Shown here piece after piece: positions 18,823 to 21,964 of a stretch of 64,000 nucleotides of DNA. Position numbers and translations under genes: made by a program. Positions within the stretch are counted from its first letter, which is position 1, and every line of letters begins with the position of its first letter. The notes beneath the pieces were generated by a model. The model saw only the letters and a program-made list of their open reading frames with translations. It searched no databases and was not told the DNA's origin. Source of the DNA: Tepidanaerobacteraceae bacterium (GTDB taxonomy: Bacteria > Bacillota > Thermosediminibacteria > Thermosediminibacterales > Tepidanaerobacteraceae); contig JANLFP010000001.1 of NCBI GenBank assembly GCA_024655905.1, positions 124,001 to 188,000 of the forward strand, written 5' to 3'.

Positions 18823-18857
18823 TTCTTAAGTAATTAAGTAATATTCTTAAGTAATTA
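18823..18857 (-). promoter_or_regulatory. Tandem dyads before the SLC13 permease gene
   Basis: TTCTTAAGTAATTA occurs at 18823-18836 and again at 18844-18857, exactly 21 bases apart, which is two helical turns. Each copy holds a dyad CTTAA-GTAA-TTAAG (the second ends TTAGG). This is how paired operator sites on one DNA face look. The second copy overlaps the end of the 51-residue ORF. Confidence 0.45.
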
Positions 18858-19002
18858 GGAAAACAAGCAACTCAAATAATGCTTCCTCAGGGCCTTGAAT
18901 ACTTTCTTTTGCTTTTGCAATTGCTTCTATGGGTATGCAATATTTTTCTAGGTTTTCTTCTAGAGTCTTATAATATTCTGACTTCAATTCAATTTCGCTC
19001 AT
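18847..19002 (-). CDS. Small protein of unknown function in the corrinoid methyltransferase cluster
   Basis: This is a 51-residue ORF starting at ATG 19002 with a good GGAGG six bases upstream. The protein is acidic, predicted helical and soluble, beginning MSEIELKSEYYKTLEENLEK and ending in a hydrophobic LFELLVFLIT tail. I do not recognise a family. It is co-directional with the UroD-type methyltransferase, MFS transporter and corrinoid protein genes, separated from the methyltransferase by 172 bases. Its leader carries the same hairpin type as the MFS gene, which supports it being expressed and linked to them. It could be a small accessory or regulatory subunit. Confidence 0.55.
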   Translation of the reverse strand: MSEIELKSEYYKTLEENLEKYCIPIEAIAKAKESIQGPEEALFELLVFLIT

Positions 19003-19013
19003 TTTAGCCTCCA

Positions 19014-19040
19014 TTCCGCCGCTGCTATTGGCGGCACAAG
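19014..19040 (-). promoter_or_regulatory. Leader hairpin, copy 1, before the 51-residue ORF
   Basis: CCGCC (19016-19020) and GGCGG (19030-19034) enclose a nine-base loop just upstream of the ribosome-binding site of the small ORF. The same structure with a compensated base pair is found before the MFS gene (21894-21920). It is probably an RNA element acting on translation or mRNA stability. Confidence 0.5.
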
Positions 19041-19174
19041 TATAATGATAATGATAAAATTATATTTCAAGCTATATGATCCCTTTCACAATGTGGGTTT
19101 ATAAAAAATAGATCTTTTATCCTCAATTAATTTCATACAATTAATTTCAGAAATTTAAATGCGATTCCTTCAAA

Positions 19175-20344
19175 TTAATAGACCCCATACTCTCTTATGC
19201 ATTTCAATAATGTCTGCAAATTTTCCACTTTCGCATCGCTTGCTCTGAGAATACCTTTATCCAGATTAAAAATATAGTTTCCTCCTGGTGCTAGGATATC
19301 TATCAACTCCTTGGTTTTTCTTTCAACTTCTTGGATACTGCCCGTTCTTAACAAAGAAATTGGAAAAAGGCCTTCTATAATATGTTTATCGCCGAGCTTT
19401 TGTTTAATAATTTTTGGTTCGCCATATTCAAATTGCATCTCACATCCTGCGGGCAATTCTTTTAGGTAATCCAAATATCTCATCCAGTCGTCTTCACAGA
19501 ACATATAAACACCAAATCCGGCTTCCGTGATATATTCAACCATTCGTTTATAAGTCGGCCACCAGAATTTTGCAAAATCTTTTTCTCTCATGAAGGTAGG
19601 CATGTGCAATGCGATTCCTACACGAATTGTTTTGGATGGCTTTTCAGCGGGAATACCCATTTTCAAAACAAGAGGCAATAATGCTTCACAGGCTTCAAGA
19701 ACCTTTTGGGGATATTTTCTAATATCTATGCTTATACCTGTAAAAGATCTAAAAGTATCCGCAAGTAAATCAAAAGGTGCTCTCGTTCTTTTGCTGTAAA
19801 ATTTTTGTGTCACCTTCCCATATTTTGCTGCTATATGTGCGGCGGCAGGGCCTATTTTTGCCATGACATTTTTCATAGAAACGTACATCTTAAGTAAAGC
19901 AATCATATTATAAGGTGCTGGTTTTGCCAATTCAGAATAAAATTTAGGAATCACCTTTTCCCAGCATACTTTAACAGGATCATTAATCAATTCATCATAA
20001 TCTTCAGGCTCTATTCCATTGATATTTGGGTGTTGCATAAACCCGTCTCCGCCCATAACATAATTTCTTGCTCCCAAAATTTTATAATATGATGGTAATC
20101 TGGATGAAAAACCCACTACAAGATCTGTATCAAATAATCCATTTGTATAGTCCATAGCTTCAATCATTTCATCAGCACTATATTGATCTAAAATTAGATT
20201 TTTACCTGCATACTCAAGCGCTGCAGCCCCATCTATGTTTATGGCTATAGGTATTTTCTTCGGCATTCTACCCTCATAAATATCAATAAAGTTCTGATTT
20301 CTTTGCTGCGATTGTTCAATCATTACTTTATTCGCATGATCCAT
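19175..20344 (-). CDS. Uroporphyrinogen-decarboxylase-family (corrinoid-dependent) methyltransferase
   Basis: This 389-residue TIM-barrel protein belongs to the UroD superfamily, which besides haem enzymes includes cobalamin methyltransferases such as MtaA, MtbA and CmuA. The presence of a corrinoid protein gene in the same cluster favours methyl transfer over haem synthesis. Visible family segments are MGGDGFMQHPNINGIEPEDYDELI and ISLLRTGSIQEVERKTKELIDILAPGGNYIF near the end. The zinc motif HxC of MtaA is not obvious; the matching place reads FCEDDW. ATG 20344 follows GGAGGG; an earlier in-frame ATG lacks one. It could demethylate the substrate or move the methyl group to a final acceptor. 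Confidence 0.83.
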   Translation of the reverse strand: MDHANKVMIEQSQQRNQNFIDIYEGRMPKKIPIAINIDGAAALEYAGKNLILDQYSADEMIEAMDYTNGLFDTDLVVGFSSRLPSYYKILGARNYVMGGDGFMQHPNINGIEPEDYDELINDPVKVCWEKVIPKFYSELAKPAPYNMIALLKMYVSMKNVMAKIGPAAAHIAAKYGKVTQKFYSKRTRAPFDLLADTFRSFTGISIDIRKYPQKVLEACEALLPLVLKMGIPAEKPSKTIRVGIALHMPTFMREKDFAKFWWPTYKRMVEYITEAGFGVYMFCEDDWMRYLDYLKELPAGCEMQFEYGEPKIIKQKLGDKHIIEGLFPISLLRTGSIQEVERKTKELIDILAPGGNYIFNLDKGILRASDAKVENLQTLLKCIREYGVY

Positions 20345-20399
20345 CAAAATCCCTCCAAAACAATGTATAAAACAATCCGGACCTCTCATAGAAAAGGTT

Positions 20400-21881
20400 C
20401 TATACTTCAGTCAACACTTTTTCATTTGCTAAACTGCCAACTCGGCCCGCATCAATTTCCTCTTTTATTTTTGCAATTTTTTTGTCATTTAAGGGGTAAA
20501 ATATAAGAACTATGGCAAATGCTATTACTGCCAACAAAAAAGGATACAGGCTTTGTAGATTGATTAATGTATTTATAACTTTTTGCGTGGGAACTGCACC
20601 CTTTGCATATGCAGCACCATTATACCCTGCTACTGCAAGAATGGATGTCCTTATTAATGTTGAAAGAGTTAATCCTACCCTTACAGATAATGAATAAACT
20701 GCCATAGTTATAGCATCTGTTCTTTCTCCGGTTTTCCATAAAGCCCAATCAGCTGCTGCTGCAAACATCGGCATTAAATATGCCTCAATTACACCCGCAA
20801 AGAAACTGGCTACTGCCACTAATGCAATAAATGCGCCTGTAGAAAAATTTGTAAAGAATAATCTGAGAACGCCTAAGACAGCAATATGTACCATGCCTGC
20901 TGCGATAAATGATCTCTTTGAGTCTTTGAAAATTTTAAGCCAAACCACTCCAAACATTGCTCCTACAACGGCACTTAAATTGTATAGCAACATATATGTT
21001 CCCAACGCGCTAAAATTATTCGCTACATATTTAAAGAAATATGATGCAGTTAATAATTGAAAGAAATAATAAATTTTATGTATTGACAAGAAAAGAAATA
21101 CCGTTAAGAGAGCTTTATTCATAACTACTCCTTTTAATATTGTTGATAGTGGCACTTGGCGTTTTTTCTTGGCTTGAATTTCACCTTTAGCAGCAATAGC
21201 CTCTCTCTCAATAAATGAACTTTTTAATATGAAAGCGTATATAAAGTTTAATGCAATTGCAAAGATACCAATTACATAAGCTGTTGCCGCCCAACCAGCT
21301 GCTTCCGATCCTCCTTTAGCAATAAAATATACCAAAAGGCCCGGTACAATCAAACCCCAAAGAGTTTTACCGCCATCTCGACCAACCTTCTGACTTATTG
21401 CTAGAAAAGATCTTCCCTTTGGATCGGTTGCCAATCTTGGATAAAATCCAACAATAGCTGTTGCACTAATCGATTCATTTGCTGAAGCTATTATTCCTAA
21501 AAGAAAAACAAGTAATGCCAAGTTTTGGGGAGATTCAGATATTGAAGGTAATGCAAATGTTATGATGTTTGCGACATTTGAACCCAATACACCAACCACT
21601 ATCCATATCCAGTATTTCCCTATCCTTGTGGTTACCCGATCCAGAAAAATCCCAAAGCTAGGACCTGCAAACCAAGCAATAAGAGCTCTTATTGTTTCCA
21701 AAGCCCCGGATAGGGCTACGGGCATCATATAAATATCGGTAAATAACATTGGAAGATACGATGAGAAATATGACATTGGAGCTGAGGTGCCTAGACTTGG
21801 AAGAATGTATAGATATCTTGTTAACTTATCTATCGTGGCTTGTTGGTTTGACGTTTTGGTATATTTATCCAAGCTGATCAT
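20400..21881 (-). CDS. MFS transporter of the GPH (sugar:cation symporter) type
   Basis: This is a 493-residue membrane transporter with about 12 segments. The N-terminal half contains GPSFGIFLDRVTTRIGKYWIWIV, the GPH version of the loop 2-3 MFS motif with D-R-T-x-x-x-G-K-x-R/Y. The centre has a basic cytoplasmic loop (EIQAKKKRQVPLSTIL). It lies 55 bases upstream of the methyltransferase gene and 83 bases downstream of the corrinoid gene on the same strand. It probably brings in the methylated substrate, as similar transporters do beside other O-demethylase genes. Its ribosome-binding site is preceded by the shared hairpin. Confidence 0.85.
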   Translation of the reverse strand: MISLDKYTKTSNQQATIDKLTRYLYILPSLGTSAPMSYFSSYLPMLFTDIYMMPVALSGALETIRALIAWFAGPSFGIFLDRVTTRIGKYWIWIVVGVLGSNVANIITFALPSISESPQNLALLVFLLGIIASANESISATAIVGFYPRLATDPKGRSFLAISQKVGRDGGKTLWGLIVPGLLVYFIAKGGSEAAGWAATAYVIGIFAIALNFIYAFILKSSFIEREAIAAKGEIQAKKKRQVPLSTILKGVVMNKALLTVFLFLSIHKIYYFFQLLTASYFFKYVANNFSALGTYMLLYNLSAVVGAMFGVVWLKIFKDSKRSFIAAGMVHIAVLGVLRLFFTNFSTGAFIALVAVASFFAGVIEAYLMPMFAAAADWALWKTGERTDAITMAVYSLSVRVGLTLSTLIRTSILAVAGYNGAAYAKGAVPTQKVINTLINLQSLYPFLLAVIAFAIVLIFYPLNDKKIAKIKEEIDAGRVGSLANEKVLTEV

Positions 21882-21893
21882 CTTAACCTCCTT

Positions 21894-21920
21894 TCTGCCG
21901 CTATTGCTGGCAGCACAAAA
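21894..21920 (-). promoter_or_regulatory. Leader hairpin, copy 2, before the MFS gene
   Basis: CTGCC (21895-21899) and GGCAG (21909-21913) enclose a nine-base loop just upstream of AGGAGG of the MFS gene. It matches the element at 19014-19040 in position, loop size and flanks, and one stem pair changes from C-G to T-A on both sides. Confidence 0.5.
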
Positions 21921-21964
21921 ATAGTAAAGTTAAATTTTCGATCTTTCTAGTAAATCATAAATGA

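Follow-up and report, generated by a model that had tools for sequence, protein, structure and literature searches.

The DNA analysed here (the window) is a stretch of 64,000 nucleotides from a Tepidanaerobacteraceae bacterium (GenBank assembly GCA_024655905.1, contig JANLFP010000001.1, positions 124,001 to 188,000), in which two 27-base hairpin elements lie at 19014–19040 and 21894–21920. The original prediction, made from the sequence of the window, had placed them before ribosome-binding sites of a methyltransferase cluster and read them as a selected RNA structure, possibly a translational control element or protein-binding site specific to that cluster. Both stretches were confirmed, each directly 5′ of a GGAGG sequence and a start codon; the stem difference described for them (C-G in one, T-A in the other) is correct and limited to one pair, and no other stretch of the window matches the hairpin pattern perfectly. 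Both hairpins belong to copies of a small mobile element that inserts 4 nt before the start codons of unrelated genes. The hairpin and its Shine–Dalgarno (SD) sequence very probably form one end of a 62–75 bp derivative of an IS110-family insertion sequence (IS), guided to start codons by RNA.

Because the genes are encoded on the minus strand, their RNA reads as the reverse complement of the window. Copy 1 reads TGTGCCGCC-AATAGCAGC-GGCGG-AATGGAGG on the minus (coding) strand and UGUGCCGCC-loop-GGCGG-AAUGGAGG-CUAAA-AUG as RNA. It was annotated as a miniature non-autonomous IS110 derivative of 68 bp (TAGCTTGAAATATAA...GGCGGAATGGAGGC; 19007–19074, minus strand, as are all features below), with an 80% match over the whole 69-nt family consensus, and its termini are those of a full IS110 element. 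Its hairpin (CCGCC/GGCGG stem, 19016–19038) corresponds to the left-end hairpin of the IS. The element-borne SD GGAGG (19008–19012) lies 5 nt before the ATG of the host gene, a 51-amino-acid open reading frame (ORF; MSEIELKSEYYKTLEENLEK..., 18847–19002), and the target flank TAAA (core TA plus 2 nt, 19003–19006) puts this ATG exactly 4 nt from the element (locus L050). An internal leader frame with a TTG start (LKYNFIIIIILVPPIAAAEWRLK, 18999–19070), presumably translated, ends in a TGA that overlaps the host ATG. The sequence AAAGGG (19081–19086), now upstream of copy 1, is the likely original SD of the host gene, as judged from the filled and empty sites described below. Copy 2 (21886–21945) is older and decayed, and its distal end is uncertain. 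It reads TGTGCTGCC-AGCAATAGC-GGCAG-AAAGGAGG on the coding strand and UGUGCUGCC-loop-GGCAG-AAAGGAGG-UUAAG-AUG as RNA, with a CTGCC/GGCAG stem (21895–21917) and a GGAGG (21887–21891) 5 nt before the ATG of a 493-amino-acid transporter-like ORF (MISLDKYTKTSNQQ..., 20400–21881).

Copies were located in the source genome (G000) by similarity search. A 61-base query from copy 1 gave 20 places at E≤0.001, and the 69-nt family consensus TAGCTTGAAAAATAACTTTTCATTACTATTTGTGCCGCCAGCGGTAGCGGCGGAATGGAGGTTAAAATG gave 28 at E≤5e-5, with copy 2 as the 29th, so that the two stretches are far from chance matches. The genome copies have sharp ends and a length of 62–75 bp, a unit longer than the hairpin alone. 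An ORF of at least 50 amino acids begins at a fixed place, 5 nt past the GGAGG position, in 22 of the 29; several of the remaining copies have an ATG at the same place that opens a short frame only. The downstream genes are unrelated (fmt, pyrB, thiI, ubiD, mutS2, hemB, ybjQ, sugar and ABC transporters, and others), and some lie in the middle of operons. A regulator specific to the methyltransferase cluster was rejected on this spread of about 29 copies over the whole genome.

A pattern scan, with many metagenome-assembled genomes (MAGs) among the genomes used, returned at least 116 stretches; among the matches listed nearly all are from Clostridia, and some are from MAGs labelled Bacillus. 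An ORF start lies 2–12 nt from GGAGG in 97 of the 112 copies with enough sequence, at exactly 5 nt in 67 of those 97; for all GGAGG sequences in the same loci, the share with a start at 2–12 nt is 30%. Some small copies in other Clostridia reach about 140–200 bp; these share the two ends and are preceded by an SD. The covariance-model search put forward with the original prediction was run with a hairpin model on 299 genomes of the phylum and placed the hairpin in 22 of them, a wide but patchy distribution; at most 18 copies per genome were counted. Rfam held no family matching the hairpin element, and viral contigs held no exact match to the hairpin pattern. A YbjQ-like small gene carries the element in two distant lineages, the source genome (L032) and Herbinix (L089/L155), through either independent hits or transfer. 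In most copies of the loci compared, an ATG inside AATGGAGG is in frame with the true start, and starts called by automatic annotation may therefore lie 12 nt too far upstream (MEVKM..., MEDNM...).

Over 72 selected relatives, two-sided changes were found in 4 of the 10 stem pairs of the hairpin; 95.8% of the cells retain pairing and 12 changes are two-sided, above any shuffled or slid control, which gives modest support since the set was chosen by pattern. On the gene strand the fold allows UUUGU to pair with AUGGA and so to cover part of the SD. What stood of the original prediction is a conserved hairpin tied to a ribosome-binding site, with a compensated stem and an SD that can pair in the fold; the specificity for one cluster did not. 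A likeness of the hairpin to helix 18 of 16S rRNA was put down to chance, given that the loop varies between taxa.

Insertion was read from filled and empty sites. In the congeneric pair G040 and G145, the YqhQ site is empty in G040 (ACAAGGTGA/TAAAATG; a slash marks the junction here and below) and has the same flanks with a clean insertion in G145; GerMN and patatin genes follow the same pattern, and GerC reverses it, filled in G040 and empty in G145. At seven genes of the source genome the element is absent from the orthologues in family relatives: for ubiD a congener reads TTAAAGGGTGA/TAAAATG, and the source genome carries the insert at that place. Insertions are clean, lie 4 nt ahead of the start codon between the native SD and the ATG, and leave the native SD on the far side. 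A TA-like core is the only sequence common to both junctions, and there is no larger target duplication; an IS200/IS605-type target at the left flank was rejected, as the native side shows no fixed tetranucleotide. At L057 a newer copy sits between the SD of an older one and the ATG, and tandem copies occur at L145 and L170; in all the tandem or nested cases (L057, L145, L150 and L170) each newer copy lies between the SD of the older and the start codon. The distribution is that of a dispersed repeat, which the original prediction itself had named as speaking against its reading.

These sites also bear on the view that the hairpin and SD are a cis-regulatory RNA (riboswitch, RNA thermometer or protein-binding site) of a regulon, with the repeats as the conserved site of its regulator. 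The two-sided stem changes, the pairing of the SD with conserved UUUGU, the near invariance of UUUGUG and AAUGGAGG and the position before start codons across Clostridia would all suit such an RNA. Its targets, however, lack functional coherence, its occurrence is patchy (22/299) and outside any Rfam family, its ends coincide with IS110 termini, and its absence at orthologous genes, seen in the filled and empty sites, largely refutes it; we consider it very improbable.

In other genomes many copies have a divergent IS110-type transposase gene upstream. Genome G005 holds two near-identical IS110 elements, one of 1673 bp and another that lacks 142 bp internally. Read in gene orientation, their starts are AAAGGAGGAT/TAGCTTGAAAAATAAC and CGAGGTAA/TAGCTTGAAAAATAAC, and both run to TTTTTCATTACTATTTGTG-hairpin-GGAATGGAGGT/TAGT, after which comes GTG or ATG; the junction at this end reads ...TTTTCATTACTATTTGTG-hairpin-GGAGGT/TAGT-GTG. 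The 62-bp element is exactly these two IS ends joined, with the hairpin and SD as the IS left end. The transposase ORF matches PF01548 (DEDD, 3.7e-20) and PF02371 (Transposase_20, 1.4e-19), both above the curated cut-offs. The full IS has no terminal inverted repeats; its non-coding left end covers about 305 nt from the left terminus to the ATG, and its right end about 100 nt. Of the 299 genomes, 5 (G005, G212, G272, G074 and G128) encode a transposase of 70% identity or more; all five carry the element, a co-occurrence with a chance of about 1e-6 by simple arithmetic given 22/299, and in four of them the gap from ORF to element is 254–259 nt. More distant relatives (47–55% identity) have another hairpin at the same end (TTTTGTGCCTTGAGCG..GCGAAAGGAATG), in several cases likewise directly upstream of gene starts. 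Judged by their ends, the small copies are non-autonomous derivatives of an IS110-family IS.

Three observations concern individual copies of the IS. The left-end deletion of 142 bp in one of the G005 elements (L350 versus L351) removes the guide region described below and leaves the transposase ORF open. In Pelotomaculum propionicicum (L179) a 276-bp internal-deletion derivative has both IS110 ends, and about 24 nt downstream begins an ORF that resembles the reverse transcriptase of a group II intron. At six loci of Fusibacter ferrireducens (L087, L092, L094, L113, L151 and L183) the contigs end about 70–80 nt upstream of the hairpin, which is consistent with full-length IS copies collapsing in assembly.

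Another mobiliser was considered, namely the REP-associated tyrosine transposases (RAYT, Y1 type) of the same genomes, which would move the element as a repeat like the repetitive extragenic palindromic (REP) sequences. RAYT genes are present in G000, G009, G040 and G145, and one copy lies directly before such a gene; at this place (G000 C11:324329–325000, L314) the leader frame runs into the transposase ORF. Several RAYT genes in these genomes have ends of their own, GGGGACGGTTCT and AGAACCGTCCCC. Where ends are visible, RAYT genes are flanked by that different repeat (GGGGACGGTTCT...) and not by the element; the element-bearing genomes G006, G010 and G074 gave no PF01797 match, and the IS110 termini match exactly, so that mobilisation by RAYT is hardly credible.

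The left end of the IS was searched for guide sequences. Eight left-end regions align well and show conserved helices and 13 pairs with compensatory changes; a clear two-loop layout as in IS621 was not seen in this alignment. Every left-end column was then scored for pairing with the element's own target, taken as the 7 host-owned bases from the core through the start codon. One column came clearly first (mean of 6.86 of 7 bases paired; next best 5.86). It reads (U/C)AU followed by four variable bases and pairs with the copy's own host NNNN-AUG: UAUAAAA for TTTT-ATG, UAUUCUA for TAGA-ATG, UAUCUUA for TAAG-ATG, UAUGUUA for TAAC-ATG and UAUGAUA for TATC-ATG. In 15 IS copies, full or partial, the target guide pairs with the copy's own target at 100 of 105 positions (G-U counted); with targets shuffled among the copies 20,000 times, the mean was 82.1 and the maximum 96, and no shuffle reached 100. 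A donor guide matches the element's own right end at 6–7 of 7 bases in all six elements with a known right end (CACGCUA with TAGCGTG, CAAGCUA with TAGCTTG, ACACUA with TAGTGT), and every other assignment of ends gives a lower score. The segment ACACUA at column 37 of alignment A2 was rejected as target guide, as the column scan puts the start-codon guide at column 93. Because the left-end guide pairs with each copy's own target, the IS apparently encodes a bridge or seek RNA with an anti-start-codon target guide and a donor guide, the two guides expected of a bridge RNA (PMC11208160) or seek RNA (PMC11187229).

Several points weigh against this interpretation. No matching full-length IS was found in the assemblies G000, G009, G040 and G145, all of which hold small copies, so the mobiliser in these genomes can only be inferred. 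One IS (L097) lies away from any start codon. The 15 IS copies also cannot be taken as independent, since three come from a single species and share one target type. After the column scan a guide for the SD side, GAGGUGA, is no more than suggested; if it is real, the order of the target guides would be reversed relative to IS621 (A2, columns 48–107), despite a non-coding region upstream as in IS110.

The following course of events would account for the data. The non-coding left end would encode the bridge or seek RNA, and a circular intermediate would join the right end (..CAAGC-TA) to the left end (TA-ACCTCC..). The target guide (U/C)AU-NNNN would pair with NNNN-AUG of a gene start, and the donor guide (CACGCUA, CAAGCUA or ACACUA) with the right end of the element itself. 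The recombinase (DEDD plus Transposase_20), if active, would place the element at the dinucleotide that lies 4 and 3 nt before the start codon. An NTG codon of the element would then follow the native SD, and the terminal GGAGG would come to lie 5 nt before the host ATG. Since the element brings its own ribosome-binding site, the host gene can presumably still be translated. A short leader frame would begin behind the native SD, cross the hairpin and, in many copies, end in a TGA that overlaps the host ATG; ribosomes recruited by the native SD could unfold the hairpin and then reinitiate, which would re-couple translation of the host gene and make the insertion close to silent. The small copies, without transposase and guide RNA, would be moved in trans.

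The part played by the hairpin can be read in two ways. The reading favoured here gives it a role in translation, in which the native SD would drive translation of the NTG leader frame across the hairpin; this frame does reach a TGA overlapping the host ATG in many copies of the source genome. The other keeps the mobile element as described and has the hairpin retained for transposition, as a recombinase recognition site at the end or as a stem-loop at the 5′ side of the guide RNA, with no part in translation of the host gene; we give this somewhat less than an even chance, and rate it nearly as likely as the translational role. Every small copy keeps the hairpin, and relatives with a different hairpin sequence (CCTTGAGCG..GCGAAAGG) also have a hairpin in the left end. 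An IS110-type mini-IS moved with a left end of only 29 bp and a right end of 16 bp (PMC11187229), so end sequence of such a size can be what matters. The near invariance of the SD and of its 5-nt spacing to the host ATG speaks against a role in transposition, as does the UUUGU/AUGGA pairing, which makes sense on the gene strand only.

The leader frame might itself be the conserved unit, a short leader-peptide gene (MKNxFSLLFVPP..AEWRLK) acting on the next gene through ribosome stalling or coupling. Its start codon (ATG, GTG or TTG) stands at one place after the native SD, variants longer by 6 nt stay in frame, and its stop overlaps the host ATG. The frame is, however, shifted in copies L035, L037, L039 and L046, its tail differs in G145, substitutions are not concentrated at third positions, and the NTG is accounted for by the donor end. 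A conserved peptide was therefore rejected as the main reason for the element, and we think it most unlikely.

The closest precedent is IS900 of Mycobacterium avium subsp. paratuberculosis, also of the IS110 family, the insertion of which is said to lie between SD and ATG, as seen for the element here. IS900 has neither terminal inverted repeats nor target duplications (PMC8141618), and a 1997 report (Doran et al., cited in PMC8141618) presents it, by its title, as targeting translation initiation signals. It differs in coming from another phylum than the Clostridia element, the left end of which has a hairpin and SD placed to serve the host gene; the literature searched gave no guide-RNA basis for IS900 targeting and no miniature IS900 copies. 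Bridge and seek RNAs have been known since 2024 (PMC11208160, PMC11187229). IS621 and related bridge-RNA elements (Durrant et al. 2024, PMC11208160) share the DEDD recombinase with PF01548 and PF02371, the long non-coding left end, and target and donor guides with a common core dinucleotide; IS621 targets REP elements at a CT core, whereas the core of the Clostridia IS is mostly TA and its target guide reads the start codon. The IS110/IS1111 elements with seekRNA (Siddiquee et al. 2024, PMC11187229) also have a non-coding region upstream of the transposase, and their mini-IS (29 bp left, 16 bp right) is similar in size to the 62-bp element (about 46 plus 16 bp); the former was engineered, whereas the Clostridia miniatures are natural and have spread. 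Like bacterial miniature inverted-repeat transposable elements (MITEs), the small copies are short, multicopy and non-autonomous, share their ends with a full IS and give filled and empty sites. Their ends (TAGCTTGAAAAA and ..GGCGGAATGGAGGT) are not inverted repeats, so that the name MITE fits only loosely.

Searches of the literature by sequence and by topic, with many subscription papers outside their coverage, returned no description of the element, and none of start-codon guides in Clostridia, of miniature IS110 elements in nature or of ends restoring a ribosome-binding site. What is new is the guide-RNA evidence for start-codon targeting, the miniature derivatives and the termini that rebuild the ribosome-binding site, with IS900 as precedent for the target preference. 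On balance we lean towards a wider generalisation for this Clostridia IS110 clade: its guides would combine a fixed anti-start-codon part with four lineage-specific bases, which would make any gene start targetable, and its ends would be built to be translationally silent, the right end providing the displaced native SD with a start codon and the left end giving the host gene an SD gated by the hairpin, whereby the miniatures would have spread to tens of copies per genome.

The findings would offer a mechanism for the old observation on IS900, in that the start codon can serve RNA-guided recombinases as the constant part of their target, which opens many sites while coding sequence is spared. 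Natural miniature IS110 elements of about 62 bp may serve as a guide to minimal ends for bridge-RNA tools. For the Clostridia themselves, they explain a widespread hairpin before ribosome-binding sites that could pass for a regulatory RNA, and they may affect the annotation of start sites.
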